NCBI RefSeq assembly: GCF_900102015.1
Contig: NZ_FNAT01000004.1
Coordinates: 308,443-372,442, forward strand
DNA: 64,000 nucleotides
Direction: 5' to 3'
Source: Limimaricola pyoseonensis
GTDB lineage: Bacteria > Pseudomonadota > Alphaproteobacteria > Rhodobacterales > Rhodobacteraceae
A program made the translations under genes and the position numbers. Of this stretch, positions 8,020-61,172 are shown one piece after another; positions within the stretch are counted from its first letter, which is position 1; the number at the start of each line of letters is the position of its first letter. Under the pieces are notes generated by a model. That model had not been told where the DNA came from. It did not search any database and saw nothing but the letters and a program-made list of their open reading frames with translations.

Positions 8020-11349
<3,330 letters not shown>

Positions 11350-45723: not shown

Positions 45724-48135
45724 TTATTGGCCGCGGGGCTTGGCGCGCAGGGTCGGCGCGGCCTCGGTCGGGTCCTCGGGCCAGGGGTGGCGCGGGTAGC
45801 GGCCGCGCATGTCCTTGCGCACGTCGGCATAGGAGCTGGCCCAGAAGCCCGGCAGGTCGTCGGTCACCTGCACCGGCCGCCCGGCGGGCGACAGAAGCGT
45901 CAGCTTCAGCGCCGTGCCGCCCACCGTCGGGTGCCGGGTCACGCCGAACAGCTCCTGCAGCCGCAGCGCGATCTCAGGCGGCTGGCTGTCGTAGTCGATC
46001 GGCACCTGCCGCCCGAGCGGCGTGGTGAAGGCCGGCGGCGCCTCGCGGTCGAGAAGCTGCGTCTGGTTCCAGTCGAGCATCGCCCGCCAAGGCCCGAGCA
46101 GGTCGAAGCCCTTCCAGTCGTACGCGCTGCGGGTCCTGCCGAGGAAGGGCAGGAGCCAGCCCTCCAGCGTCGCCATCAGCGCCTCGTCCGAGAGGTCCGG
46201 CAGCTCGGCGCCGCCGTCGCGCAGCAGCATTACCCGGGCGCGGAAGCGTTGCGCGGCGGGCGAGGGGCGCAGCCCGAGCTGGCGCACGCCCTCGAGCATG
46301 GCGCGCGCCACCGCTTCGTCGGGCGCCTCGCGCCAGATCCGGTCCGACAGCGCGATGGCGCCGAGCCGCTCCTGCAGCCGCGCCGTGACGCGGCCCTCGC
46401 GCTTCGACCATTCGCAGACGGAGACCTCCTCGATCCGGTCGGCGAAGAGCTCGCGCAGCTCGGTCTCCTCGATCCGCGCCGCCTGCCGGATCTTCGCCTC
46501 GGTTGCGTCGCCCGAAAGATCCGTCGCCACGATCAGCCGCGCGCCCGCCAGCGGGTCCGAGGCCTCCATCATCGCCCCCTTGCCGCCGGAGAGCAGCCAG
46601 CGCGGGTCGTCGCCGGGGCGGCGCAGCCCGATCCGGTCGGGATAGGCCAGCGCCGCCATCGCGCCGACCGAGAGCGCCGGGCCGTCGGCGCGGCCTCTTG
46701 CCAGCCGCTTCGCCTCGTCGCGCACCCGCGCCAGCACGCCCATGTCGGGCGCGGCGGGCAGGTCGCGCGCGCCTTTCGCGGCGCGCAGCCGCAGCCCGAG
46801 ATCGCTGCCCGCGCCGCGCAGCGGGTCGCGCTCGCCCATCAGCGCGGCGAGCGGCGCCGCCTGCGCGCCCGCCACCTCCAGCATGTGGCCCAGACGCGGA
46901 TGCAGCGGCAGCGCCGCGAGCCGGCAGCCATGCGGCGTGATCGTGCCCATGCCGTCGAGCGCGCCGAGATCGCGCAAGAGCGCCTTGGCCTCGGCCAGCG
47001 CCGGGCCGGGCGGCGGCGTCAGGAAGGGCAGGGCGTCCGAGCCCCATTGCGCCAGCTCGAGCGCCAGCGGCGCGAGGTCGGCGCTGGCGATCTCGGGGTC
47101 GGGGAAGGCCGAAAGCGCGCCTTCCTCGCCGCGGGTCCAGAGCCGGTAGCAGACGCCCGGCGCGACCCGGCCGGCACGGCCCGCGCGCTGCGCGGCCTCG
47201 GCGCGGGTCACCTTCTCGGTCACCAGCCGCGACATGCCCGAGCCCGGATCGAAGCGCGCCCGCCGGGCGCGGCCGGCATCGACCACGACGCGGATGTCGG
47301 GGATGGTGAGCGAGGTCTCGGCGATCGCGGTGGCCAGCACCACACGGCGAATCTCGCCGCCGGGCTCCAGCGCGGCGGCCTGCTGCGCGGGCGGCAGCGC
47401 GCCGTAGAGCGGCAGGATCTCGCAGGCCGGCAGGCGCGACGACAGCAGCCCCTGCACCCGCCGGATTTCGCCCTCGCCGGGCAGGAACACCAGAACGCCG
47501 CCCTCGGCCTCGGTCACGGCGCGCTCGACCAGCGCCGCCGTCTCTGCCTCCAGCCGCGCGCGGGGGCCGAGCGGCCTGTCGAGCCAGCGTGTCTCGACCG
47601 GGAAGCTGCGGCCCTCGGAGGTGACGACCGGCGCGCCCATCAGCTCGGCCACGGGGCCCGCGTCGAGCGTCGCCGACATGGCGATCAGCACGAGGTCCTC
47701 GCGCAGCGCGCCGCGGATCTCGAGGCAGAGCGCGAGGCCGAGATCGGCGTTGAGCGAGCGTTCGTGGAACTCGTCGAAGATGACGGCGCCGACGCCCGGC
47801 AGCTCGGGGTCTGACTGGATCATCCGGGTCAGGATGCCCTCGGTCACCACCTCGATCCGCGTGGCCTTCGAGACCTTGGATTCGCCGCGGATGCGGAAAC
47901 CCACCGTCTCGCCCACGCGCTCGCCCAGCGTCTTGGCCATGCGCTGCGCCGCCGCCCGCGCGGCAAGGCGGCGCGGCTCGAGCATGACGATGCGGCCGGG
48001 GATGCGGTCGAGCAGGGCCAGCGGAACCCGCGTCGTCTTGCCGGCGCCGGGCGGCGCCTGCAGCACCGCCTGGCCCGCGCGCGCGACGGCCGAGATCAGC
48101 TCGGGCAGGGCGTCGTCGATCGGCAGTCGGGTCAT
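45724..48135 (-). CDS. hrpB: ATP-dependent helicase HrpB
   Basis: An 803-residue DEAH-box superfamily 2 helicase. Motif I A-P-P-G-A-G-K-T-T, motif II D-E-F-H-E-R-S, motif III S-A-T-L-D, and motif VI Q-R-A-G-R-A-G-R are in order. The HA2 region and the HrpB-specific C-terminal domain (L-P-V-D/I-D-Y-D-type I-D-Y-D-S-Q-P-P near the end) complete it. HrpB homologues are RNA helicases of uncertain role, not connected with the Hrp secretion system. It is monocistronic, between the Nudix gene and rpmB on the same strand. Confidence 0.95.
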   Translation of the reverse strand: MTRLPIDDALPELISAVARAGQAVLQAPPGAGKTTRVPLALLDRIPGRIVMLEPRRLAARAAAQRMAKTLGERVGETVGFRIRGESKVSKATRIEVVTEGILTRMIQSDPELPGVGAVIFDEFHERSLNADLGLALCLEIRGALREDLVLIAMSATLDAGPVAELMGAPVVTSEGRSFPVETRWLDRPLGPRARLEAETAALVERAVTEAEGGVLVFLPGEGEIRRVQGLLSSRLPACEILPLYGALPPAQQAAALEPGGEIRRVVLATAIAETSLTIPDIRVVVDAGRARRARFDPGSGMSRLVTEKVTRAEAAQRAGRAGRVAPGVCYRLWTRGEEGALSAFPDPEIASADLAPLALELAQWGSDALPFLTPPPGPALAEAKALLRDLGALDGMGTITPHGCRLAALPLHPRLGHMLEVAGAQAAPLAALMGERDPLRGAGSDLGLRLRAAKGARDLPAAPDMGVLARVRDEAKRLARGRADGPALSVGAMAALAYPDRIGLRRPGDDPRWLLSGGKGAMMEASDPLAGARLIVATDLSGDATEAKIRQAARIEETELRELFADRIEEVSVCEWSKREGRVTARLQERLGAIALSDRIWREAPDEAVARAMLEGVRQLGLRPSPAAQRFRARVMLLRDGGAELPDLSDEALMATLEGWLLPFLGRTRSAYDWKGFDLLGPWRAMLDWNQTQLLDREAPPAFTTPLGRQVPIDYDSQPPEIALRLQELFGVTRHPTVGGTALKLTLLSPAGRPVQVTDDLPGFWASSYADVRKDMRGRYPRHPWPEDPTEAAPTLRAKPRGQ

Positions 48136-48217
48136 GGGGCGCGGCTCATGGGGCTGGCCGGGCGGGGGCGCGGGCCGCCCTCCGGCGCGTCGGGAAAACG
48201 GGGTGGCGGACGCGAAA

Positions 48218-48248
48218 AGGCCCGGCGCCTCGCGTGAGGGCCGGGCCT
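48218..48248 (-). terminator. Terminator of rpmB
   Basis: A 9-bp stem (AGGCCCGGC 48218-48226 with GCCGGGCCT 48240-48248), extended inward by CCTC/GAGG. Read on the minus strand it ends in TTTT. Confidence 0.8.
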
Positions 48249-48271
48249 GCGATTCGCGTCCGCGAAGGAAC

Positions 48272-48559
48272 TCAGGCCTCGGCGGCGGCCTTGGCGAGCT
48301 CTTTCTTGACCTTCAGCGCGGCGGGCGACAGGTCCTCTTCCTTCGCCTTGGCGAGGAAGGCGTCGAGGCCGCCACGGTGATCGACCGAGCGCAGCGCGTG
48401 CGAGGAGACGCGGAACTTGAAGCCGCGGCCCAGCGCGTCCGACAGCAGGGTCACGTCCTGCAGGTTCGGCAGGAAGCGGCGGCGGGTCTTGTTGTTGGCG
48501 TGGCTGACATTGTTGCCAGTCATCGGGCCTTTTCCGGTCAGTTCGCAACGGCGCGACAT
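48272..48559 (-). CDS. rpmB: 50S ribosomal protein L28 (bL28)
   Basis: A 95-residue ribosomal protein. It opens [20 protein letters not shown] and continues with [24 protein letters not shown] follows, as in alphaproteobacterial L28. Only one Cys is present, so it is the zinc-ribbon-free (C-minus) type. GAAGGAAAAG is upstream of the ATG at 48559. It is followed by its own terminator. Confidence 0.97.
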
Positions 48560-48682
48560 GGTCTTTTCCTTCGTGTCTCGGGGCCTGGCAGTCACCCGCG
48601 CCCGGAGGCACGGATACGGCGTCGGCAACGGGGCCGGGCCATGAATTCGGTCAGGGGGCCATACGGGGATTCCGCTGGCGCG

Positions 48683-49684
48683 TCAAGCGCCGCGCAATGC
48701 CTGCCGCAGCGGCTCCAGCGCCGCCCGCGCCGCCGCCGCCGGCGCGCTCTCGCCCGAGGCCGCCGCCGCGCGCAGCCGGTCGAGCCGGGCGGCCAGCGCC
48801 CGATCCTCGCGCAGAAGGTCGACGACGCCGGCGCGCAGCTCCTCCTCGAACCACTGCCCGGCCTGTTCGGCCCGCCGCCGCGCGGTGATGCCGGTCTCGC
48901 GCCGCCATTCCGCCAGCCGCTCCACCTCGGCCCAGGCCTCGGCCACGCCTTCGCCGGTGCGGGCCGAGACGCAGCGCGCCATGGGAAAGTCGTCGGGGTC
49001 GATCTCCCGCTTGCGCAGGAGCCGCAGCGCGCCGGCATAGTCGGCCTGGGTGCGCCGCGCCTCGGCCGCCAGATCGCCGTCCGCCTTGTTGACGAGGATC
49101 AGGTCGGCGATCTCCATGATGCCGCGCTTGACGCCCTGCAGCTCGTCGCCGCCGGCAGGCGCGAGCAGCAGCAGGAAGATGTCGGTCATGCGCGAGACCA
49201 GCGTTTCGGACTGGCCCACGCCCACCGTCTCGACCAGCACCACGTCGAAGCCCGCCGCCTCGCACAGCAGAAGCGCCTCGCGGCTGCGGCGCGCGACGCC
49301 GCCCAAGTGCCGCGCGGCGGGGGTGGGGCGGATGAAGGCGGCGCGTTCGCGGCTCAGCCGCTCCATCCGCGTCTTGTCGCCGAGGATCGAGCCGCCCGAG
49401 CGCGCCGAGGACGGGTCGACCGCGAGGACGGCCACCTTCTGCCCGCCCTCGACCAGCCGCAGGCCCAGCGTCTCGGTGAAGCTCGACTTGCCGACGCCGG
49501 GCGTGCCCGACAGCCCCACCCGCAGCGCGCCGGGGCGGTCGGGGTCGGCCAGCCGGTCGAGAAGCGCCTCGGCCGCGGCGCGGTGGTCGGGGCGCGTGCT
49601 CTCGACCAGCGTGATGCCGCGGCTCAGCGCGCGCCGTTCCCCGGCCGCGATGCGGGCCGCCAGATCCTCGATCTCGATGCTCAT
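48683..49684 (-). CDS. meaB: Methylmalonyl-CoA mutase-associated G-protein chaperone MeaB
   Basis: A 333-residue G3E-family GTPase that guards and reloads the B12-dependent methylmalonyl-CoA mutase. The P-loop G-T-P-G-V-G-K-S-S is followed by [10 protein letters not shown] and [21 protein letters not shown] and the base motif N-K-A-D come next. The mutase gene is not in the window, but prpE at 56857 provides the propionyl-CoA branch. An ArgK-type name is also used for this family. Start at 49684 (M-S-I-E-I-E-D-L). Confidence 0.92.
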
Positions 49685-49722
49685 GCGCCCCTTGTCGCGG
49701 GGCGCGCGCGCGCTGTCCAGCC

Positions 49723-50022
49723 TCAGCGGCAGATCGCTTCGGCGCGGTCGGCGAAGCTGCGATAGCGCTTCCAGAACGCCTCCGAGCCGTTTTCCTGCCG
49801 CGTGTCCTGCGCCCGCTGCGGGTCGTCGAAAAACTTCGCCGCCCGGCGCTGTTCGCCCCAGCTCAGCGACTGGTCCGCCACGCCCTGCACGCAGGAACAC
49901 AGATTGATGTTCGCCGCCGAGCGCCCGCTCGACATGCAGGCCTTGCTGATCGGCCCCGAGGGCCGGCCGCCGCCGCAGGCCGCCAGCGCCGCGAGCGCCA
50001 TGATACCGATGATGATGCGCAT
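49723..50022 (-). CDS. Small lipoprotein of unknown function
   Basis: A 99-residue protein with a signal peptide and the lipobox L-A-A-C (Cys16), so it should be lipid-anchored in the envelope. The mature part has four Cys (A-C-M, L-C-S-C and I-C near the end) that could form disulfides. It also has [10 protein letters not shown] and [13 protein letters not shown]. It resembles short Rhodobacterales lipoproteins, which I recall being labelled arginine transporter in some annotations; I see nothing supporting transport. It is divergent from lepA. Confidence 0.75.
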
Positions 50023-50194
50023 GCCCGTATCCCCGTGATCGCCCCGGTTCGCCCGGGATTCTCGATCCTGCTCTACCGCCGGTCATCATGCCCGAGCCAT
50101 GGCCGCTCCGCAATTCGTGAGAGGCGGGGTACGGCTTCGCACCTTCACATCGGCGTGAGCCCGCAAGCCCCCTCCGCCGTGCCCTCGCGCCCCA

Positions 50195-50223
50195 TTGACC
50201 GGATGCCCGAAGCCCTGCATATG
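50195..50223 (+). promoter_or_regulatory. Predicted leaderless promoter of lepA
   Basis: -35 TTGACC (50195-50200), exact 17-base spacer, -10 CATATG (50218-50223), then six bases to the ATG at 50230. No Shine-Dalgarno is present. Confidence 0.55.
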
Positions 50224-50229
50224 CGGGCC

Positions 50230-52029
50230 ATGACCGAGCTTTCGCACATCCGCAACTTCTCCATCGTGGCCCATATCGACCACGGCAAATCCACCCTCGC
50301 CGACCGGCTGATCCAGTCGACGGGCACGGTGCAGGACCGCGAGATGAAGGCGCAGCTCTTGGACAGCATGGATATCGAGCGCGAGCGCGGCATCACCATC
50401 AAGGCGCAGACCGTCCGCATCGACTACAAGGCGCTGAACGGCGAGTCCTACGTGCTGAACCTGATCGACACGCCCGGCCATGTCGACTTCTCCTACGAGG
50501 TCTCGCGCTCGATGCGCGCGGTCGAGGGGTCGCTCCTGGTGGTCGATTCGACCCAAGGGGTCGAGGCGCAGACGCTCGCCAACGTCTACCACGCCATCGA
50601 CGCCGACCACGAGATCGTGCCGGTGCTGAACAAGATCGACCTGCCGGCCTCCGAGCCCGACCGCGTGAAGGAGCAGATCGAGGACGTGATCGGCATCGAC
50701 GCCTCCGAGGCGATGCTGGTCTCGGCCAAGACCGGCGTCGGCATCCGCGAGACGCTCGAGGCGATCGTTCACCGCCTGCCCGCGCCCAAGGGCGACCGCG
50801 AGGCGCCGCTGAAGGCGATGCTGGTCGACTCGTGGTACGACCTCTATCTCGGCGTGGTCGTTCTGGTGCGGATCATGGACGGCGTGCTGAAGAAGGGCGA
50901 CCGGGTCAAGTTCATGCAGAACGACACGGTGCACCAGGTCGACCGGATCGGCGTGTTCAAGCCCGGCATGCTTCCCGTGGACGAGCTGGGGCCGGGCGAG
51001 ATCGGCTTTCTCACCGCCTCGATCAAGCAGGTGCGCGACACCAAGGTCGGCGACACCATCACCCATGAGAAGAAGGGCGCCGAAAAGCCGCTGCCGGGCT
51101 TCGCGCCCTCCGTGCCGGTGGTGTTCTGCGGCCTCTTCCCGGTCGACAGCGCCGAGTTCGAGGACCTGCGCAACGCCATCGAGAAGCTGGCGCTGAACGA
51201 CGCGTCCTTCTCCTCCGAGATGGAGACCTCGGCGGCGCTGGGCTTCGGCTTCCGCTGCGGCTTCCTCGGCCTTCTGCATCTCGAGGTGATCCGCGACCGG
51301 ATCGAGCGGGAATACGGCATCGACCTGATCACCACCGCGCCGTCGGTGGTCTACCACGTCCACATGCGCGACGGCACGATGCACGAGCTGCACAACCCCG
51401 CCGACATGCCCGACCTCACCCATGTCGACCACATCGAGGAGCCGCGCATCAAGGCGACGATCATGGTGCCGGACGACTATCTGGGCGACGTGCTCAAGCT
51501 CTGCCAGGACCGCCGCGGCATCCAGGAGGAGCTGACCTATGCCGGCTCGCGGCCGCTGGTGGTCTACGACCTGCCGCTCAACGAGGTGGTGTTCGACTTC
51601 TACGACCGTCTGAAATCGGTCACCAAGGGCTATGCCAGCTTCGATTACCAGATCACCGGCTACCGGCAGGACAACCTGGTGAAGATGCAGATCCTCGTGA
51701 ACGACGAGCCGGTCGACGCGCTGTCGATCATGGTGCACCGCGACCGCGCCGAGAGCCGCGGCCGGGCGATGGTGGAGAAGCTCAAGGAGCTGATCCCCCG
51801 CCACATGTTCAAGATCCCGATCCAGGCCGCGATCGGCGGCAAGGTGATCGCCCGCGAGACGCTGTCGGCGATGCGCAAGGACGTGACGGCCAAGTGCTAC
51901 GGCGGCGACGCGACCCGCAAGCGCAAGCTCTTGGACAAGCAGAAGGCGGGCAAGAAGAAGATGCGCCAGTTCGGCAAGGTGGACATCCCGCAGGAGGCGT
52001 TCATCTCCGCGTTGAAGATGGATGGGTGA
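50230..52029 (+). CDS. lepA: Elongation factor 4 (LepA)
   Basis: A 599-residue translational GTPase that acts on stalled or initiating ribosomes. The G1 motif is [10 protein letters not shown]2/G3 R-G-I-T-I and D-T-P-G-H-V-D-F, G4 N-K-I-D and G5 S-A-K-T. The LepA-specific C-terminal domain ends [20 protein letters not shown]. The ATG at 50230 gives [10 protein letters not shown], the family start. An in-frame ATG at 50221 overlaps the -10. The protein is intact; a degenerate second copy of its last 150 bases follows at 52101. Confidence 0.97.
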
Positions 52030-52057
52030 ACAGCCGATCCGTTCTGGAAACCCGTCG

Positions 52058-52086
52058 AAACCTCCGGCTCCCACGGCCGGGGGTTT
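52058..52086 (+). terminator. Hairpin after lepA
   Basis: An 11-bp stem with one A-G mismatch (52058-52068 with 52076-52086), ending in GGTTTAC. Likely the lepA terminator. It sits between the intact tail and the degenerate copy. Confidence 0.5.
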
Positions 52087-52100
52087 ACTTTGGGCGCACA

Positions 52101-52250
52101 GTTGTGACAGCCAAATGCTATGGCGGCGACGTGTCCTGCGAGCGCAAGTTCTAGGATAAGCAAGGGGCGGGCAAGAATAAGGTCGGTCGGTTCAGGAGGG
52201 TCGATGTTCTGCAGGAAGCGTCTATCTCTGCGCTGAAGGTGGACAGGTAA
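52101..52250 (+). pseudogene. Degenerate copy of the lepA 3' end
   Basis: These 150 bases align without gaps to 51880-52029, the last 49 codons and stop of lepA. By hand I count 112 identical positions of 150. Translated in register they read [11 protein letters not shown], then the copy's counterparts of the lepA residues up to a stop aligned with the lepA stop. They are interrupted by one in-frame TAG at 52152-52154. Many differences are G/C to A/T. It has no start and cannot make LepA. It directly abuts the low-G+C gene on the opposite strand. It may be a remnant of a recombination or integration event that brought in that gene. Confidence 0.85.
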
Positions 52251-53018
52251 TCACATCTCCATTTGCTTAATCAACTGCTGGATCAGCTCTTGCTTCATCG
52301 CGTTATTATTGCGTGGTGATGGAGCCTGGATGTACTCGACCGCTTTAAAATGATCTCCTCTCTTTCTGTTTTGCGGGGGCTCCAGAGATTCGATAAGTAT
52401 AGCCTCAAAAGCGGCGACAACTTTTTCCATTTCAAAGCTGGGGGCGGAACCCTTCAGCTTCCCGTGAGCATCGACTTCTTTTAATCCAAACCACGAAAAT
52501 CTTTCCCAGCGTCCATTGAGTCGGTCGCGAGTGTGTTCATACAACCTTTGGCCAAGTGGGCGATCTATCGAGCGACCAACATAAATTACACGTCCTCGAT
52601 CATGAAGTAAGTAGATGCCAACTTGATCGCAAAAGTCTATAGGATCGGAGTCTTCTTGCTGCTTTCCCATTAATTTGGGAGCGCGCTTCCAGTCCACCTC
52701 GGTTGCACGCCAATACATTCCAATAGAAGTCACGATCCCAGCAGCGCTTTCTTCGGTCTCCGGTTTTTGATTGCTTTCTTTGTATAGCTTCTCTCGAAGG
52801 GTGTAGTAACCTCGTTCAGTTTTTAGGAACGTGTCGTTTCCGTTATTGATAGACCTGCTAATTGTGGAGGCAACAGTATTTGCTGGTGTTGCGCCTAGGC
52901 TCCGCCGCATCTTGTTCTTTGCGATCACCTCGGCAATTTCGGCAAAATGCATTGGTTCATCGGCAGCTCTCAGTACCTCTATAATAGAGGACTCCCAGTT
53001 TGAATTTCTCTTTGCCAT
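52251..53018 (-). CDS. HARE-HTH/GIY-YIG nuclease domain protein
   Basis: A 255-residue two-domain protein. Residues about 8-76 fit the HARE-HTH winged helix: S-I-I-E-V-L-R-A, M-H-F-A-E-I-A-E-V-I, T-V-A-S-T-I-S-R-S-I and G-Y-Y-T-L-R-E. Residues about 132-222 are a GIY-YIG nuclease: G-I-Y (134-136), Y-V-G (146-148), Arg158, His162, metal Glu205 (F-E-A-I-L-I) and Asn217. HARE-HTH modules are linked to sensing modified DNA and to restriction systems. Two 60-base lines of the gene are only 25/60 G+C, and AT-ending codons are common, so it was acquired. AGGAAAAG precedes the ATG at 53018; an upstream ATG at 53054 lacks one. Confidence 0.85.
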   Translation of the reverse strand: MAKRNSNWESSIIEVLRAADEPMHFAEIAEVIAKNKMRRSLGATPANTVASTISRSINNGNDTFLKTERGYYTLREKLYKESNQKPETEESAAGIVTSIGMYWRATEVDWKRAPKLMGKQQEDSDPIDFCDQVGIYLLHDRGRVIYVGRSIDRPLGQRLYEHTRDRLNGRWERFSWFGLKEVDAHGKLKGSAPSFEMEKVVAAFEAILIESLEPPQNRKRGDHFKAVEYIQAPSPRNNNAMKQELIQQLIKQMEM

Positions 53019-53099
53019 GAAACTTTTCCTGAATATTCTATGGCAAGACTGCACGATGGGTCTATTTACTGCAAGTCAAAGTTGTAATTCCTGCAAGAT

Positions 53100-53309
53100 C
53101 TACCCCCGCCCACTCTTCTCCTGCAGCGCGTCGATCCGCTCGCTGGCTTCGGCCTTGGTCAGCCCGTCGTCGAACTCTTCTCCGGCCTCCTCGCACAGCG
53201 TCTTGAGATAGCTCGCCTGCGCGCCGGTCATCGGCTCGTCGCCGGTGACCCAGTTCTCCGGGTCCTTCTCGGCGTTGCCCTGCGGGTGGCTCTTCGGGTC
53301 GTCGGTCAT
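53100..53309 (-). CDS. DUF3072 domain protein
   Basis: A 69-residue protein of the DUF3072 family. The diagnostic region P-M-T-G-A-Q-A-S-Y-L-K-T-L-C-E-E-A-G-E leads into L-T-K-A-E-A-S-E-R-I-D-A-L-Q. This resembles the SAP-like helical motif of the family, which is of unknown function. The N-terminal third is polar and probably flexible. GGAGG precedes the ATG. A paralogue lies at 61238-61435. G+C returns here to the genomic level, so it marks the right edge of the low-G+C segment. Confidence 0.85.
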   Translation of the reverse strand: MTDDPKSHPQGNAEKDPENWVTGDEPMTGAQASYLKTLCEEAGEEFDDGLTKAEASERIDALQEKSGRG

Positions 53310-53414
53310 GTCGCGTCCTCCATGTCTGGAGTTCGTACAATGTTCCGTACGCCGCCCGGTTCCCCGCGCCGGTGGTCACACCGGCGCGAGGCCTCCGCCG
53401 GACCCGCGTGACGC

Positions 53415-54161
53415 CTAGGCCAGGAACGCCTTGACCGCCGCCTCGACCTCGCGCGGCTTCTCGGCGTGCAGCCAGTGCCCCGCGCCCTCGATCACTTCGA
53501 ATCCGGCTTCGGGAAACAGCGCCCGGATGCGGTCGTGGTGGTCCTCGGAGACATAGGCCGAGTTCGCCCCCGACAGGAACAGCGCCGGGCCGTCGAAGCG
53601 GCCGTCGATCTCGGGAAAGCCGAGAATGGTCTCCATGTCGCGCTCGAGCACGTCGAGGTTCAGCTTCCAGCGCTTTTCCTGCAGGTCGAGCGACTGCAGG
53701 AAGAACGCCGCCGTCGCGGCCTCGAGATCGCCCATCATCTCGGTCGCGTCGGAGCGGCTGGCGATGGCCTCGAGGTCGACCTGCTTCATCTTGCGGATGT
53801 TGTCGATCTGGTCGTGCCCGTAAGCCACCGGCGCGATGTCGGCCACGACGAGGCGGCGCACGAGTTCCGGCCGGGTCAGCGCCAGCACCATCGACGCCTT
53901 GCCGCCCATGGAATGGCCCAGCACGTCGGCGCAGCCGTGATGCTCCAGCACCTCGGCCAGATCCTCGGCCATGCCGTGATAGTCATGCGTCTCGGTCCAG
54001 TGGCTGTCGCCGTGGTTGCGCATGTCGACGGAGATCACCTGCCGGTCCTGCCCGAGACGGCGCGCGATGACGCCCCAGTTGCGGGCCGAGCCGAACAGGC
54101 CGTGGACGATCAGCAGGGGCGGGCGGTCGGAGGGCTCTCCGGTGAGGATGGTGTTCAGCAT
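53415..54161 (-). CDS. Alpha/beta hydrolase (YbfF-like esterase)
   Basis: A 248-residue alpha/beta-fold hydrolase. Oxyanion-hole region I-V-H-G-L-F-G-S-A-R-N-W-G precedes the nucleophile elbow G-H-S-M-G-G-K (Ser of the triad). The catalytic His is in G-A-G-H-W-L-H-A-E-K-P. S-V-D-M-R-N-H-G-D-S and the strand-7 Asp region complete the pattern. Among known relatives it looks most like the acyl-CoA/short-chain esterase YbfF. The ATG at 54161 begins M-L-N-T-I-L-T-G-E; in-frame sequence before it is not part of the fold. Confidence 0.88.
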   Translation of the reverse strand: MLNTILTGEPSDRPPLLIVHGLFGSARNWGVIARRLGQDRQVISVDMRNHGDSHWTETHDYHGMAEDLAEVLEHHGCADVLGHSMGGKASMVLALTRPELVRRLVVADIAPVAYGHDQIDNIRKMKQVDLEAIASRSDATEMMGDLEAATAAFFLQSLDLQEKRWKLNLDVLERDMETILGFPEIDGRFDGPALFLSGANSAYVSEDHHDRIRALFPEAGFEVIEGAGHWLHAEKPREVEAAVKAFLA

Positions 54162-54201
54162 GGTTGGGGTTGTAGCGCGTGCCGTGGCGGACGCCAGCCC
54201 A

Positions 54202-54229
54202 TTGAGCCGGGGCGCGCGCGGCGCTACCA
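54202..54229 (+). promoter_or_regulatory. Possible leaderless promoter of the 124-residue protein gene
   Basis: -35 TTGAGC (54202-54207), 16-base spacer, -10 CTACCA (54224-54229), six bases to the ATG at 54236. Confidence 0.35.
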
Positions 54230-54235
54230 AGAGAT

Positions 54236-54610
54236 ATGAACCGCACGACGATAAATGGCTGGGCGCGCGAGATTTCCCGTCTTCTGGACGATCGCGCCGG
54301 GGTGGGGGGCCGCGACCTCGCCGCGCGGCTCGACCGTGCCGCACCGGTGCTGCCGCCCGAGATCCTCGCCCGCGCCCGTTTCCTCGCCGCCGCCGAGACG
54401 GTGTCGCGCCTGCCCGAACGCGCCGAGGCGATCGATCTCGAACGGGTCGAGACCGCCTATGTCACGGTGCAGAGCTGGCTGATGGCCGAGGAGCCCGAGG
54501 CGCTGCGCCACGCGCTGCGCCGGGCGGTCTGGATGCGGCGCGCCCGTCAGGCGGCGTCGATCCTCTTGGCCGCGCTGATCGCGGGCCTGTTGTGGCGCGG
54601 GATCGCCTGA
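54236..54610 (+). CDS. Hypothetical protein with C-terminal membrane anchor
   Basis: A 124-residue protein I do not recognise. It is largely helical and Ala/Arg/Leu-rich. The last 20 residues (A-S-I-L-L-A-A-L-I-A-G-L-L-W) form one membrane helix preceded by Arg residues, so the soluble part should stay in the cytoplasm, tail-anchored. Third-position G/C use matches a real gene of this genome. It lies between the esterase (divergent) and glyA (convergent). Confidence 0.6.
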   Translation: MNRTTINGWAREISRLLDDRAGVGGRDLAARLDRAAPVLPPEILARARFLAAAETVSRLPERAEAIDLERVETAYVTVQSWLMAEEPEALRHALRRAVWMRRARQAASILLAALIAGLLWRGIA

Positions 54611-54626
54611 CCCCGCGCCCTTCGCC

Positions 54627-55922
54627 TCAGAGGTTCGGGTAGAGCGGGAAGCGCTGGCAGAGCTCCTCGACCTCACCGCGCACCTTCTCCTCGACCTCGG
54701 CGTTGCCCTCGGGCCCGTTCTTGGCGAGCCCGTCCACCACCTCGACGATCCAGTCGGCGATCTGGCGGAACTCGGCCTCGCCGAAGCCGCGCGTCGTGCC
54801 CGCGGGCGAGCCGAGCCGGATGCCGGAGGTCACCGCCGGCTTCTCCGGATCGAACGGGATGCCGTTCTTGTTGCAGGTGATGTGGGCCCGGCCCAGCGCG
54901 TCCTCGGTGGCGTTGCCCTTCACGCCCTTGGGCCGCAGGTCCACGAGCATCAGGTGGCTGTCGGTGCCGCCCGTCACGATGTCGAGCCCGCCCTTCATCA
55001 GCTGGTCGGCCAGTGCCTGGGCGTTCTTCACGACCTGCTGCTGGTAGGTCTTGAACTCGGGCTTCAGCGCCTCGCCGAAGGCCGCGGCCTTGCCGGCGAT
55101 GACATGCATCAGCGGCCCGCCCTGGATGCCCGGGAAGATGGCCGAGTTGCACTTCTTGGCGATCGCCTCGTCATCGGTGAGGATCATGCCGCCGCGCGGA
55201 CCGCGCAGCGTCTTGTGCGTGGTGGTGGTGGCGACATGGGCGTGCGGGAAGGGCGAGGGGTAGATGCCCGCCGCGACCAGCCCGGCGAAGTGGGCCATGT
55301 CGACGAGCAGGTAGGCCCCGACGCTGTCGGCGATCTCGCGCATGCGCGCGAAGTCGATGATCCGCGGGATGGCCGAGCCGCCGGCGATGATCATCTTCGG
55401 CTGGTGCTCGGTCGCGAGCTCCTGGATCCGGTCGTAGTCGATCTGCTGGTCCTGCTGGCGCACGCCGTACTGCACCGCGTTGAACCACTTGCCCGACTGG
55501 TTGGGCTTGGCGCCGTGGGTCAGGTGGCCGCCCGCGTCGAGGCTCATGCCGAGGATGGTGTCGCCGGGCTGCAGGAGCGCCTGGAACACGCCCTGGTTGG
55601 CCTGGCTGCCCGAGTTCGGCTGCACGTTGGCGAAGCCGCAGCCGAAGAGCTGCTTGGCGCGGTCGATGGCGAGGTTCTCGGCCACGTCGACGAACTGGCA
55701 GCCGCCGTAGTAGCGCCGGCCCGGATAGCCCTCGGCATACTTGTTGGTCAGCACCGAACCCTGCGCCTCGAGCACCGCGGCCGAGACGATGTTCTCGCTG
55801 GCGATCAGCTCGATCTCGTGGCGCTGGCGGCCCAGCTCGTCGGTGATCGCCTGCGCGAGTTCGGGATCGCGGGTGGCGAGCTTCTCGGTGAAGAAGCCGT
55901 CGTCGCGGGTGGGGGCATTCAT
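54627..55922 (-). CDS. glyA: Serine hydroxymethyltransferase
   Basis: PLP enzyme converting serine and tetrahydrofolate to glycine and 5,10-methylene-THF, the main one-carbon source. It has 431 residues. [20 protein letters not shown] and [11 protein letters not shown] appear in the N-terminal half. The PLP Lys is in [15 protein letters not shown] chose the ATG at 55922 because GAGG lies eight bases upstream. A GTG at 55931 would add three residues. It has no operon partner here, being convergent with the small membrane-protein gene. Confidence 0.97.
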
Positions 55923-56082
55923 CTCGGACACCTCGTACGGGGTTGCGTCGCCGCTCTCTTACCGCAGGGGGCAGGGGCCCAAAAGCCCCGAAACCGACGC
56001 CGGGGCAACCGGTCGCGCCGCGCGGGTTGCGTTTCGCGCCGCGCTGACCGAGAAATTCGGGGCACGGAGCGGGGGACCGGAT

Positions 56083-56847
56083 TTGGCACGAGAACGCATC
56101 GCCTTCCTGGCCAGCGAGGCAGGGATCGCGCAGGAGACCTGCGCCCGCCTCGCGCAGCGTTACGGCCATTACCCGATCGAGGAGGCGGAGGTGGTCGTGG
56201 CGCTGGGCGGCGACGGCTTCATGCTGCAGACGCTGCACGCCACCGAGGCCTGCGACATCCCGGTCTACGGCATGAATCGCGGCACGGTCGGCTTCCTGAT
56301 GAACGCCTTTTCCGAGGACGAGCTGCCGGCGCGGCTCGCCGCCGCCGAGGAGGCGATTCTCAACCCGCTCGCCATGCTGGCCGAGACGGTCGATGGCACG
56401 CAGCACCGGGCGCTGGCGATCAACGAGGTCAGCCTGCTGCGGGCCGGGCCGCAGGCCGCCAAGCTCAAGGTGATCATCGACGAGCGGGTGCGGCTCGAGG
56501 AGCTGGTCTGCGACGGGGCGCTGGTGGCGACGCCGGCGGGCTCGACCGCCTACAACTATTCCGCCTACGGGCCGATCCTGCCGATCGGGGCGGACGTGCT
56601 GGCGCTGACCGCGATCGCGCCCTTCCGGCCGCGGCGCTGGCGCGGCGCGCTGCTGCCGACGCAGGCGCGGGTGCGCTTCGAGGTGCACGACCCGGCCAAG
56701 CGGCCGGTGATGGCCGATGCCGACAGCCGGGTGGTGCGCGACGTGGCCTGGGTCGAGATCCATTCCGAGCCGCGGGTCGGGCACCGGATCCTGTTCGACC
56801 CTGGCCACGGGCTCGACGAACGGCTGATCCGTGAACAGTTCGCCTGA
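56083..56847 (+). CDS. nadK: NAD kinase
   Basis: Phosphorylates NAD to NADP. It has 254 residues in the compact alphaproteobacterial form. Hallmarks are the diphosphate motif V-A-L-G-G-D-G-F-M-L, the N-R-G-T-V-G-F-L-M loop, N-E-V and T-P-A-G-S-T-A-Y-N-Y-S. No ATG lies near the domain start. The TTG at 56083, giving M-A-R-E-R-I-A-F-L-A-S, best fits family N-termini and has GGGGGA upstream. Longer in-frame starts would overlap glyA. A hairpin spanning both stop codons separates it from prpE. Confidence 0.9.
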   Translation: MARERIAFLASEAGIAQETCARLAQRYGHYPIEEAEVVVALGGDGFMLQTLHATEACDIPVYGMNRGTVGFLMNAFSEDELPARLAAAEEAILNPLAMLAETVDGTQHRALAINEVSLLRAGPQAAKLKVIIDERVRLEELVCDGALVATPAGSTAYNYSAYGPILPIGADVLALTAIAPFRPRRWRGALLPTQARVRFEVHDPAKRPVMADADSRVVRDVAWVEIHSEPRVGHRILFDPGHGLDERLIREQFA

Positions 56848-56862
56848 GCCGAAGGCTCAGGC
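56842..56862. terminator. Hairpin spanning the nadK and prpE stop codons
   Basis: A perfect 9-bp stem (56842-56850 with 56854-56862, GAA loop). It contains the nadK TGA in one arm and the prpE stop in the other; a compact bidirectional 3'-end structure. Confidence 0.6.
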
Positions 56863-58767
56863 GGTCTTCGCCGCCGGCGCGCCGCCATAGCCGAGCGGCA
56901 CCAGCGCGTCGCGCAGCTCCTCGAGAATCGCCGGGTCGTCGATCGTCGCGGGCACCTTGACCTCGGCCCCGTCGGCCAGCTGCGCCATGGTGGCGCGCAG
57001 GATCTTGCCCGAGCGCGTCTTGGGCAGCCGCTCGACCACCACGGCGAGCTTGAAGGCGGCCACAGGCCCGACCTTCTCGCGCACGAGGTCGACCGCCTCG
57101 GCGGCGATCTCGGAGGCGGGGCGGGCGCAGGTGCGGTTGAGGCACAGAAAGCCCATGGGGATCTGGCCCTTGAGCGGGTCGGCGACGCCGATCACCGCGC
57201 ATTCGGCGACGTCCGGATGCTCGGCCAGCACCTCCTCCATCGTGCCGGTCGAGAGCCGGTGCCCGGCGACGTTGATCACGTCGTCGGTGCGCGCGAGGAT
57301 CGAGACATGGCCGCTCTCGGCCACGAGCCCGGCATCGCCAGTCTCGTAGTAGCCCGGGAAGCTCTCGAGATAGCTGCGGCGGAAGCGCGCCTCGTCGTGC
57401 CACAGCCCCGAAAGCGTGCCCGGCGGCAGCGGCAGTTTCAGCGCGACGCGGCCCAGCTCGCCGCGCGGCTTCTCGTGGCCCGACCCGTCGAGGATGCGCA
57501 GGTCGTAGCCCGGCATCGGCACGCCGGCCGAGCCGTCGCCGACCGGCAGCGCCTCGATCCCCGCCGGGTTGCCGCAGATCGTCCAGCCGGTCTCGGTCTG
57601 CCACCAGTGGTCGTAGACCGGCACCCGCGCCACCTCGCGCGCCCAGGCCACGGTGTCGGGGTCGGCGCGCTCGCCGGCAAGGTAGATCGCGCGCAGCCGC
57701 GACAGGTCGTGCTCGCCGGCGAGCCGGCCCGAGGGATCCTCGCGCTTGATGGCGCGCAGCGCCGTCGGCGCGGTGAAGAAGGCCGAGACCTTGTTGCGGG
57801 CGATGGCGCGCCAGAAAGAGGCGGCGTCGGGCGTGCCCACGGGCTTGCCCTCGAACACCACGGTGGTGTTGCCGTGCACCAGCGGCGCGTAGCAGATGTA
57901 GCTGTGGCCCACGACCCAGCCGACATCGGAGGCCGCCCAGAACACCTCGCCCGGCGCGACGCCGTAGATGTTGCGCATGCTCCAGTGCAGCGCCACGAGA
58001 TGCCCGCCGGTCGGGCGCACCACGCCCTTGGGCTTCCCGGTCGTGCCGGAGGTGTAGAGGATGTAGGCGGGGTGGTTCGCCTCGACCGGCACGCAGTCGG
58101 CCGGCTCGGCCTCCTCCTGGAAGTCGTGCCACTCGAAGTCGCGGCCGTGCTCGATGCCGGCCATGGCCTGCGGGCGCTGCAGGATGACGCAGAACTCGGG
58201 GCTGTGCTCGGCCTCGCGCAGCGCCTGGTCCAGCAGCGGCTTGTAGGCCACGACGCGGTTCGGCTCGATGCCGCAGGAGCCCGCGAGGATCGCCTTGGGC
58301 TTGCAGTCGTCGATCCGCACCGCCAGCTCGCGCGCCGCGAAGCCGCCGAACACCACCGAGTGGATCGCGCCGATCCGGGCGCAGGCCAGCATCGCCTCCA
58401 GCGCCTCGGGGATCATCGGCATGTAGATGACGACACGGTCGCCCTTGGTCACGCCGCGCGCCTTGAGCGCGCCGGCCAGCCGCGCCACCCGGCCCAGAAG
58501 CTCGCCATAGGTGATCTCGGTGCGGCTTTCGGTGACCGGGCTGTCATGGATGATCGCCACGTCATGGGCGCGGCCCGCGGCCACGTGCCGGTCGACGGCG
58601 TTGTGGCAGCCATTGACCATCCCGTCCGGGAACCACTCGTAGAGCGGCGCCTTCTCGGAGCTGAGCGCGCGGGTCGGCGCCCGGTGCCAGTCGATCGCCT
58701 TGGCGGCCTGCATCCAGAACCCCTCGGGGTCCCGGCGCCACGCCTCGTAGGTCTCCGCGTAGGTCAT
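56857..58767 (-). CDS. prpE: Propionyl-CoA synthetase
   Basis: AMP-forming ligase converting propionate, ATP and CoA to propionyl-CoA. It has 636 residues. C-H-N-A-V-D-R-H-V and K-A-I-L-A-G-S-C-G-I-E-P-N-R-V-V are PrpE-like and differ from acetyl-CoA synthetase. ATP-binding Y-T-S-G-T-T-G-K-P-K-G-V, Y-D-H-W-W-Q-T-E-T-G and the C-terminal catalytic Lys in P-K-T-R-S-G-K-I-L-R are intact, so it can be regulated by lysine acylation. With MeaB it points to the methylmalonyl-CoA route. It also matches enzymes that activate acrylate or 3-hydroxypropionate during DMSP breakdown in marine relatives; that role is inferred. Confidence 0.93.
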   Translation of the reverse strand: MTYAETYEAWRRDPEGFWMQAAKAIDWHRAPTRALSSEKAPLYEWFPDGMVNGCHNAVDRHVAAGRAHDVAIIHDSPVTESRTEITYGELLGRVARLAGALKARGVTKGDRVVIYMPMIPEALEAMLACARIGAIHSVVFGGFAARELAVRIDDCKPKAILAGSCGIEPNRVVAYKPLLDQALREAEHSPEFCVILQRPQAMAGIEHGRDFEWHDFQEEAEPADCVPVEANHPAYILYTSGTTGKPKGVVRPTGGHLVALHWSMRNIYGVAPGEVFWAASDVGWVVGHSYICYAPLVHGNTTVVFEGKPVGTPDAASFWRAIARNKVSAFFTAPTALRAIKREDPSGRLAGEHDLSRLRAIYLAGERADPDTVAWAREVARVPVYDHWWQTETGWTICGNPAGIEALPVGDGSAGVPMPGYDLRILDGSGHEKPRGELGRVALKLPLPPGTLSGLWHDEARFRRSYLESFPGYYETGDAGLVAESGHVSILARTDDVINVAGHRLSTGTMEEVLAEHPDVAECAVIGVADPLKGQIPMGFLCLNRTCARPASEIAAEAVDLVREKVGPVAAFKLAVVVERLPKTRSGKILRATMAQLADGAEVKVPATIDDPAILEELRDALVPLGYGGAPAAKTA

Positions 58768-58871
58768 GTCCGTCCTCCTCGGGACGGAATCCTACGCCCC
58801 GGCAAGGCCTTCGGGCAAGCGCGATGCGGCTGCGGAAGGGGTAGGGGGCGGCGGACCGCCCCCGTGCGTCC

Positions 58872-61172
58872 TCAGCCGTAATGCGCGACCGGCGTGCCGG
58901 CGACGGCGGACATGTTCAGAAGGCCGCGCGCGGTGATCGAGGGGGTGACGATATGGGCGCGGTTGCCCATGCCCATCAGGATCGGCCCGACCTCGAGGCC
59001 CGCGCCCTTCATCTTCAGGATGTTGCGCACGCCCGAGCCGGCATCGGTCGAGGCGAAGACGAGGCAGTTCGCCGCGCCCTCGAGCCGCGCGCCGGGGAAG
59101 ATGCGTTCGCGCAGCTCGGGGTCGAGCGCCGCGTCGACATGCATCTCGCCCTCATAGGCGAAGTCGCGCGGCGTGCCGTCGAGGATCTCGAGCGCGCCGC
59201 GCATCCGGCGGCCCGAGGAGATGTCGAGATTGCCGAACTGCGAATGCGAGCAGAGCGCGATCTGCGGCACCAGCCCGAAGCGGCGGACATGGCGGGCGCA
59301 GCCGATCACCGTCTCGGCGATCTGCTCGGGGCTGGGCTCGGCATGGACCTGCGTGTCGGCCACGAAGAGCGGCCCGTCCTCGAGGATCATCAGCGACAGC
59401 GCCCCCACCGGGCGCAGCGTCCGGGTGCCGAGCACCTGCTCGATGTAGTTCAGGTGCCACAGATACTGGCCGAAGGTGCCGCAGATCAGGCTGTCGGCCT
59501 CGCCGCGCTGCACCATCACCGCGGCGATCGCGGTGGTGTTGGTGCGCATCACCGCCTTGGCGATGTCGGGCGTCGCGCCGCGCCGGGCCATGAGGTCGTG
59601 ATAGGTGCCCCAGTAGTCGCGGTAGCGCGGGTCGTTCTCGGGGTTGACGATCTCGAAGTCGATGCCGGGGCGGATGGTCAGGCCGTAGCGCTCGCAGCGG
59701 GTCTCGATCACCTCCGGGCGGCCGATCAGGATCGGCGTGTCGGTGGTCTCCTCGATGATCGCCTGCGAGGCGCGCAGCACGCGCTCGTCCTCGCCCTCGG
59801 CGAAGACGATCTTGCGGGTGGAGGAGCGCGCCGCCTCGAACACCGGGCGCATCAGCATCGCCGACTTGAACACCGAGCCGTCGAGACGGCGCTTGTAGGC
59901 GGCGAGATCCTCGATCGGGCGCTCGGCCACGCCGGTCTCCATCGCGGCGCGGGCCACGGCGGAGGCGACGACGCCCATCAGCCGCGGGTCGAAGGCCTTG
60001 GGGATCAGGTAGTCGCGCCCGAAGGTCATCTGCTCGCCGCTATAGGCGGCGGCGGCCTCGGCCGAGGTGGTGGCGCGCGCCAGCGCCGCGATGCCCTCGA
60101 TGCAGGCGATCTTCATCTCGTCGTTGATCGTGGTCGCGCCGACGTCGAGCGCGCCGCGGAAGATGAAGGGGAAGCACAGCACGTTGTTGACCTGGTTCGG
60201 CCGGTCCGAGCGCCCGGTCGCGATGATCGCGTCGGGCTTCACCTCGCGCGCCAGCTCCGGCAGGATCTCGGGCGTCGGGTTCGCCAGCGCGAAGATGATC
60301 GGGCTGTCGGCCATGCGCGCGACCATCTCGGGCTTGAGCACGCCGGGGCCGGAGAGGCCGAGGAACAGGTCGGCGCCGTCGATCACGTCGTCGAGGCCGC
60401 GCGGCCCGCCCGGCTGGGCATAGGCCGCCTTCTGCGGGGTCATGTCCGCCTCGCGGCCCTCGTGGACGAGGCCGGCGAGGTCGCACAGGTAGACGTTCTC
60501 GCGCTTCACCCCGAGCTTCAGCAGCATGTCGAGGCAGGCGATGCCCGCCGCGCCGCCGCCGGTCGAGACGACCTTGACGTCGGCGAAGTCCTTCTTGGCG
60601 ACGCGCAGCGCGTTGGTGGCCGCGGCGCCCACCACGATGGCCGTGCCGTGCTGGTCGTCGTGGAAGACGGGGATGTTCATCCGCTCGCGGCAGATCTTCT
60701 CGACGATGAAGCAGTCGGGCGCCTTGATGTCCTCGAGGTTGATCGCGCCGAAGGTCGGCTCGAGCGCGCAGACCAGCTCGGCCAGCTTCTCGGGGTCGGT
60801 CTCGTTCAGTTCGATGTCGAAGCAGTCGATGTTGGCGAACTTCTTGAACAGGACCGCCTTGCCCTCCATCACCGGCTTGGAGGCGAGCCCGCCGATGTTG
60901 CCCAGCCCCAGCACCGCCGTGCCGTTGGTGACGACGCCCACGAGGTTGCCGCGCGCGGTGTAGTCGCGGGCGGTGTCGGGGTTGTCCTTGATCTCGAGGC
61001 AGGCCTCGGCGACGCCGGGCGAGTAGGCGCGCGACAGGTCGCGGCCATTGGCCAGGGGCTTGGTCGCGCGGATCTCGAGCTTGCCGGGCTTCGGCAGCCG
61101 GTGATAGTCGAGCGCGGCCTGCCGCAGGCTGTCCGAGGCGCTGCGGGCGGTGTCGTCGGTGCTGTCGGCCAT
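58872..61172 (-). CDS. maeB: NADP-dependent malic enzyme with phosphotransacetylase-like domain
   Basis: Decarboxylates malate to pyruvate with NADP+ reduction. It has 766 residues in two parts. The malic-enzyme catalytic and NADP domains run to about residue 430 ([39 protein letters not shown]). A phosphate acetyl/butyryltransferase-like domain follows to the end. In E. coli and rhizobia the second domain is regulatory, responding to acetyl-CoA, and lacks transferase activity. A dyad GGTTTA-N4-TAAACC lies 27 bases before the start and may be an operator. Confidence 0.96.

Follow-up and report, generated by a model that had tools for sequence, protein, structure and literature searches.

A solitary HARE-HTH/GIY-YIG gene beside lepA: a candidate restriction-type defence nuclease at a cargo hotspot

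The window, a stretch of 64,000 nt from Limimaricola pyoseonensis, carries downstream of lepA a minus-strand gene at 52251..53018. It runs from an ATG at 53018 to a stop codon at 52251 with no internal stop and encodes 255 aa; the span given in the preliminary description proved exact, one uninterrupted frame. The ORF list, the translation, Pfam, residue conservation and the predicted structure mark it as a HARE-HTH/GIY-YIG nuclease gene. By ORF reading, it is flanked on one side by lepA (plus strand, stop at 52029) and on the other by a small protein and a hydrolase gene, which we take to encode an alpha/beta hydrolase. lepA (elongation factor 4; 50230..52029, plus strand) is intact and is the anchor of the hotspot considered below. 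Its ORF covers 50035-52029, with a likely start at 50230 by reading, and the translation is 86% identical to L015 over ORF residues 42-665.

The nuclease gene lies in an AT-rich cargo island 3' of the lepA stop (52030..53102, with edges drawn from G+C contrast). Its G+C content of 0.48, compared with 0.62-0.79 in 500-nt windows outside the island, bears out the foreign composition first attributed to it. The position at a duplicated gene end was likewise confirmed. The functional lepA 3' tail (51873..52032, plus strand; the reference copy of repeat family D1) is followed by a spacer (52033..52093), in which a G+C-rich hairpin and then TTT look terminator-like by eye, and by a second, decayed lepA 3' tail (52094..52253, plus strand), which contains an in-frame stop and whose end coincides with the stop codon of the nuclease gene. 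The two copies are 74% identical over 160 nt, and the E value of 7e-28 in the self-comparison indicates that the duplication is not due to chance. The claim that the gene was acquired is supported. Several lepA tails match the decayed copy about equally, so it may stem from a donor or be a displaced resident. Reading the island by eye revealed no recombinase gene, and the ORFs of 46000-60000, judged in the same way, include no recognisable methylase, in line with the earlier statement that none is nearby.

The N-terminal part of the protein (residues 10-76; 52791..52991, minus strand) matches the HARE-HTH model PF05066 at E 4.3e-13, with 49.9 bits against a curated cut-off of 25.9, and is thus a member of this winged-helix family. 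The full-length protein was modelled with confidence (pLDDT 89.6, pTM 0.65): helices and a winged part make up the N-terminus, the linker near residue 85 is poorly ordered, and the nuclease domain follows. A Foldseek search with this model returned mainly winged-helix proteins, with the DpnI chain 4kyw_A at rank 15 and the RpoE-RpoC model 9a6y at rank 29; none of the matches fell under E 0.001. HARE-HTH domains also occur in human ASXL proteins (Pfam description and papers).

The assignment of the C-terminal part (residues 96-235; 52314..52733, minus strand) stayed below threshold in the Pfam, NCBIfam, PHROGs and PDB sequence searches. The two Pfam GIY-YIG matches of the window protein were both under cut-off (PF20815, E 0.026, 14.9 against 22.4 bits; PF01541, E 0.036, 14.8 against 22.6 bits), and further sub-threshold matches were a PHROG named endonuclease (E 0.1) and UvrC in the PDB (1yd6_A, E 0.15). 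GIY-YIG nucleases are marked by a GIY and a YIG motif followed in order by Arg, His, Glu and Asn. The whole set is found in this order in the window protein, as G134-I/V-Y136, Y146-V-G148, R158, H162, E205 and N217. We aligned the protein with 68 of the 80 kept homologues described below (alignment A5), leaving out L148 (in-frame stop), L209 (broken frame) and L146 (start uncertain), as well as nine others for brevity. Gly134, Tyr146, Gly148, Arg158, His162 and Glu205 are conserved in all 69 rows, and Tyr136 and Asn217 in 68. The stretch RW(D/E)RFSWFG (170-178), invariant in the 69 rows except at position 172, is a hallmark of the family. When the nuclease domain was modelled separately (pLDDT 87.3, pTM 0.82), eight of its ten best PDB matches were GIY-YIG enzymes, all weak and none under E 0.001. 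The best were Hpy188I (ranks 1-3), a type II restriction enzyme of the GIY-YIG class, together with the GIY-YIG domain of UvrC; a T4 EndoII chain ranked 17. By motif order, conservation and predicted structure, the C-terminal domain is predicted to be a divergent GIY-YIG nuclease. The combination of HARE-HTH with GIY-YIG that had been read from the letters is therefore borne out by the PF05066 match and the residues kept in 68 or 69 of the rows; in the profile search proposed at that stage, HARE-HTH came out over the Pfam cut-off and GIY-YIG under it.

An alignment-guided scan of GTDB genomes, using a three-row alignment, found 220 relatives among 251 candidate stretches; a single-protein scan of the same genome contigs found 0. 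The best 80 of the 220 were kept. They are 41-51% identical to the window protein, span both domains (tblastn) and have a mean length of 260 aa. These 80 carry 18 phylum labels, many from metagenome bins and some possibly wrong, which are mixed in several supported tree clades. In 60 of the 80, the gene has a G+C content more than 0.04 below that of its own locus. Within the family of the window genome, any match at E 1e-3 was found in 11 of 295 genomes and a full-length one in two, the window's own genome and G049 (50% identity). In the class, relatives are rare (6 of 289 genomes, three of them without the HARE-HTH part). The 669 ORFs within 5 kb of the 80 loci contain no recurrent neighbour, the largest cluster occurring at 4 loci and the next at 3. 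The nuclease gene travels alone, and the family is widespread and horizontally spread as a single gene.

This survey strongly supports the stand-alone nature proposed for the gene. As a search for defence genes around the homologues, it established the solitary gene and yielded no recurrent neighbour; an HsdM-like cluster (by eye) was seen at 3 of the 80 loci. A type II restriction-modification arrangement was likewise looked for, and no cognate methylase recurs beside the nuclease. Hpy188I, whose solved structures rank 1-3 among the weak fold matches of the nuclease domain, is a type II enzyme; the window protein differs from it in carrying HARE-HTH and in lacking a partner methylase. A repair function like that of UvrC or Cho would accord with the weak resemblance of the domain model to the UvrC GIY-YIG domain, but it is hard to reconcile with so patchy a distribution (2 full-length genes in 295 family genomes), a foreign composition and the lack of a recurrent neighbour of any kind, and we regard it as highly improbable. 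Two further arrangements were noted among the relatives. In G023 (L016:8379-8948) and G149 (L017, about 8781-9254), GIY-only relatives follow large ORFs that resemble restriction or helicase operons by eye. A possible mobile unit is seen at L194 (7341-7907) and at a second locus (probably L191), where 46 nt separate the homologue from the end of an upstream gene that looks resolvase-like by eye.

Relatives are also carried by mobile elements. One full-length relative was found among plasmids, on the small plasmid pDMC2 of Solidesulfovibrio (37% identity). Among viral contigs, the three-row alignment found 0 relatives and the 69-row alignment four; one of these four, from a predicted viral contig, is full-length and lies close to a gene that by eye resembles serine recombinases. 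GIY-only relatives without HARE-HTH lie beside the portal gene in Synechococcus phages, and the viral contig L292 (3556-7652) has a single-domain relative between terminase-like and portal-like genes (by eye). Single-domain GIY-YIG relatives in the phage portal region are seen at L292:3556-7652 and L004:6019-8379, and the portal and terminase neighbours suggest a packaging-region nuclease group related to the window nuclease domain. With T4 endonuclease II and such phage genes, the window protein shares the domain and a tblastn match to a phage gene annotated as endonuclease II; T4 endonuclease II and the phage genes near portal or terminase are single-domain and lack HARE-HTH. From these relatives one could argue that the gene was once used by a phage or plasmid as a weapon against rival DNA, comparable to T4 endonuclease II, and was left behind in the chromosome without necessarily benefiting its host. 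The GIY-only genes near the phage portal and the flanks in L292 speak for such an origin, as do the full-length relatives on pDMC2 and on the viral contig. Yet the full-length relatives lie mainly on genome-assembly contigs (the best 80 of 220, compared with one viral and one plasmid), some of which may themselves be plasmids or prophages, and the gene is intact with a conserved active site. A stranded weapon is therefore improbable in our view.

The nuclease recurs at lepA in five Rhodobacterales genomes: that of the window, G049, Gemmobacter (L141), a Paracoccus bin (L148) and Pseudooctadecabacter (L144), the last by its hydrolase side only, because the contig ends before lepA. The homologue ends within about 85 nt of lepA in G049, 7 nt in Gemmobacter and 10 nt in the Paracoccus bin, where it carries an in-frame stop. 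In the tree, the five lepA-linked genes need three changes and form one clade in 0 bootstrap trees. All five fall inside one 7-row Paracoccaceae subclade (support 91/82) and are more clustered than in 499 of 500 shuffles. Given the three changes together with the single subclade and the clustering, the pattern may equally reflect repeated capture or common ancestry at lepA followed by relocation or loss.

The same distribution bears on a selfish reading, in which a free-standing homing nuclease would cut near lepA and copy itself in. GIY-YIG nucleases include homing enzymes, and the gene is solitary, patchy, mobile and at lepA in the five genomes. However, unrelated genes fill the same lepA site elsewhere, so the site is independent of the nuclease. 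Moreover, two of the seven rows of the subclade (L140 and L142) lie away from lepA, and beyond it no lepA was found within the available flanks, tblastn detecting lepA at 2 of the 80 loci. We consider homing decidedly improbable. The duplicated tail is not a feature of the nuclease family either, since repeats at homologue borders occur at 11 of 82 loci compared with 15 of 128 control stretches.

Next, the lepA 3' end was surveyed in its own right. An island was counted when AT-rich DNA of at least 450 nt lay within 1500 nt of the lepA stop, with the DNA 2-4.4 kb downstream as the G+C reference. Islands follow lepA in 37 of 72 loci, with a median start at position 0 from the stop; a looser criterion gave 46 of 75. 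Four of the 76 lepA loci were dropped for having at most 1400 nt downstream. Sixteen of the 72 had been chosen for gene carriage, a second lepA-tail match or top similarity, and 14 of these were positive, hence the separate figure of 23 of 56 for the unselected part. The 60 survey genomes are a non-random sample, the upper part of a list ranked by similarity to the window lepA tail with a few skipped. When the test was shifted downstream in the same loci, 3 of 72 and 0 of 72 were positive. As controls we took 30 loci each of two genes presumed to be glyA and maeB, with upstream coding DNA as the G+C reference; islands followed 1 of the 28 glyA and 0 of the 29 maeB loci that were long enough. 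Most islands contain one or two genes, in both orientations, and many begin within a few nucleotides of the lepA stop. At this spot G107, which belongs to the same genus as the window genome, carries another gene, whose HEPN match stays under threshold. In the bacterial family of the window genome, which we infer to be Rhodobacterales, the 3' end of lepA is a cargo hotspot.

Of 76 further loci, 5 have a decayed lepA tail close to the lepA stop (a weak match in one case); the four strong cases and the window share the order lepA, spacer, decayed tail, cargo. In G038 the best match of the decayed tail is the genome's own lepA (with L067 in a tie). In G231, lepA and the decayed tail are separated by a small ORF (L070:3117-3413) that looks GIY-YIG-like by eye.

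Two site-specific mechanisms were considered and rejected. For an integrase that displaces a lepA tail to the far end, only near-side copies scored clearly above the reverse-strand background in the tested loci, and a far-tail candidate in L061 (299-354) was borderline, with a score of 16.4 and a reverse-strand maximum of 19.6. For an integron cassette array, the motifs GTTRRRY/RYYYAAC showed no clear excess in 38 islands, occurring per 200 nt at 0.18 at the left edge, 0.26 at the right edge, 0.21 in mid-cargo and 0.18 far away. The edges of these 38 islands share no clear motif. Hairpins are present at 16 of 38 left and 12 of 38 right edges, compared with 2 of 38 in mid-cargo and 4 of 38 at far positions; the edge hairpins are probably terminators. 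A search for a vehicle of lepA tails matched five viral contigs, all of which hold a nearly full-length lepA, as well as 15 phage and 60 plasmid records. One study describes integrase-less hotspots at core genes, with exchange by homologous recombination (PMC5635113). As in that account, fast-varying cargo sits beside a core gene and no recombinase is seen; unlike it, the lepA-stop side is constant across genera while the other side varies, and decayed lepA tails are present. By this analogy, homologous recombination at lepA would be the simplest mechanism, although alone it would not explain why only the lepA side is constant.

The islands contain 42 cargo ORFs of at least 100 aa, one of which is the G049 homologue; 30 were scanned singly, and 35 together with the two HARE/GIY proteins in a joint scan. 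Pfam matched 17 of the 30 at E 0.01 and left 13 without a match. Domains over cut-off include SIR2_2, TIR_2 with an AAA domain, FRG, RelA_SpoT and a T6SS_Tle1-like catalytic domain, two 8xMP proteins, DUF3800 and DUF2971, and a DUF5615/PIN_10 protein adjoining a DUF433/MerR protein; a PLD-like domain and HEPN were under cut-off. PADLOC models at E 1e-5 matched seven of the 30 (PDC-S33, PDC-S15, RmrA, PDC-S31, PDC-S25/ThsA, PDC-M32A and PDC-S59), the RmrA match being weak and confined to the HTH; we take PDC entries to be predicted rather than proven systems. With 7 of 30 matched by PADLOC and 13 of 30 by no Pfam model, the hotspot is not purely a site of known defence. Apart from the two HARE/GIY proteins, the cargo includes one group of four related proteins (26-33% identity to one another) and another two pairs (about 29%); the same families seem to have been captured more than once. 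The group of four (L070, L088, L100 and L132, in G231, G020, G284 and G035), spread over four genera and with one sub-threshold DUF5677 match, is a recurrent uncharacterised family. One pair comprises related proteins of about 400 aa, 29% identical, that are solitary cargo in two genera (L084:367-1536 in G050 and L124:399-1661 in G154); both have an HTH match, under cut-off in L124, and no other known family.

The defence role first suggested for the nuclease can now be judged against this setting: the hotspot speaks for it indirectly, as it holds some known or candidate defence cargo elsewhere in the family, whereas the window protein itself had 0 matches in PADLOC-DB at E 1. Among the 69 family members, two to four have weak PADLOC matches (PDC-S14 models, best E 7.5e-5). 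For a solitary, mobile gene at an immune-like site that couples a winged-helix reader with a GIY-YIG nuclease, the simplest reading is a restriction-type factor. From its genomic context, we somewhat favour the view that the nuclease is a solitary, horizontally spread restriction-type defence enzyme. The N-terminal HARE-HTH winged helix would bind, and probably inspect, duplex DNA, and the C-terminal GIY-YIG domain would cut nearby. The single gene would spread between bacteria and be captured at the lepA 3' end, where solitary AT-rich genes, several with an immune-like character, appear to be taken up in Rhodobacterales. The enzyme would probably serve to cut incoming phage or plasmid DNA; both nuclease activity and defence are inferred for a protein predicted from sequence and models.

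The most likely target would be DNA with a base modification that the host does not make, though modification as the trigger is speculative, resting on predictions for HARE-HTH domains. The window genome encodes one N6/N4 methylase, presumably CcrM-like, and one C5 cytosine methylase (G000:C17:127579-128577; L287). In the 34 carrier genomes searched, of 35 loci given out of the 80, we found an N6/N4 methylase in 31 and a C5 methylase in 16. Because host methylases are so common, a broad 6mA or 5mC target, which would include the host's own DNA, is disfavoured, and any modification read would then likely, if speculatively, lie in a narrow context or be a phage hypermodification. The frequency with which carriers encode amino- and C5-methylases can also be turned against modification altogether: a restriction-type defence nuclease might be triggered by sequence, by DNA structure or by intermediates of replication and would spare the host, whose sites are rare or masked. 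HARE-HTH is present in the polymerase subunit RpoE, which is not known to read modified bases, and the RpoE-RpoC model was among the fold matches. Set against such a trigger, enzymes with this architecture (winged helix plus GIY-YIG) depend on m6A (PMC11037411), and in Dnd systems a HARE-HTH fused to a nuclease has been proposed to read modifications (PMC10853773). We think a trigger other than modification rather unlikely.

Nucleases of a related kind are already known. PMC11037411 describes Ahi29725I and Apa233I, modification-dependent winged-helix GIY-YIG nucleases active on Dam-methylated DNA in vitro, which share with the window protein an N-terminal winged helix, a C-terminal GIY-YIG domain and the rarity of adjacent methylase genes. 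The likeness is one of architecture. In contrast to these enzymes, the window protein resides in a host that encodes the presumably CcrM-like methylase named above. The same paper treats HARE-HTH as related to, and distinct from, the winged helix studied there, with an extra helix inserted, and as likelier to sense cytosine modification (PMC11037411). Fusions of HARE-HTH to restriction-endonuclease-fold domains appear in Dnd and BREX surveys (PMC10853773, PMC12839542). Through these, the fusions of Aravind and Iyer (2012) are likewise a HARE-HTH joined to a nuclease and proposed readers of modified DNA; there the nuclease is a REase domain (PD-(D/E)XK in the BREX paper) within Dnd or BREX loci, whereas the window protein is a GIY-YIG protein and solitary. 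Neither a HARE-HTH/GIY-YIG fusion nor a lepA hotspot was reported among the matches listed from the open-licence literature, which excludes Aravind and Iyer (2012).

Taken as a whole, the proposal is twofold: that the lepA 3' end in Rhodobacterales serves, with no recombinase involved, as a hitherto undescribed landing site where solitary immune genes each abut a functional or decayed lepA tail, and that one recurrent cargo is a new, phylum-crossing single-gene restriction family in which HARE-HTH would steer GIY-YIG to modified foreign DNA. In this combined form we advance it tentatively, as possible rather than probable. If true, it would add a compact one-gene restriction family, with 18 phylum labels and no proper model in PADLOC, and it would make testable the idea that HARE-HTH domains, including those of human ASXL, read modified DNA. 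The lepA hotspot, with 13 of 30 cargo proteins lacking a Pfam match at E 0.01, may furthermore serve as a simple source of uncharacterised single-gene defence candidates.
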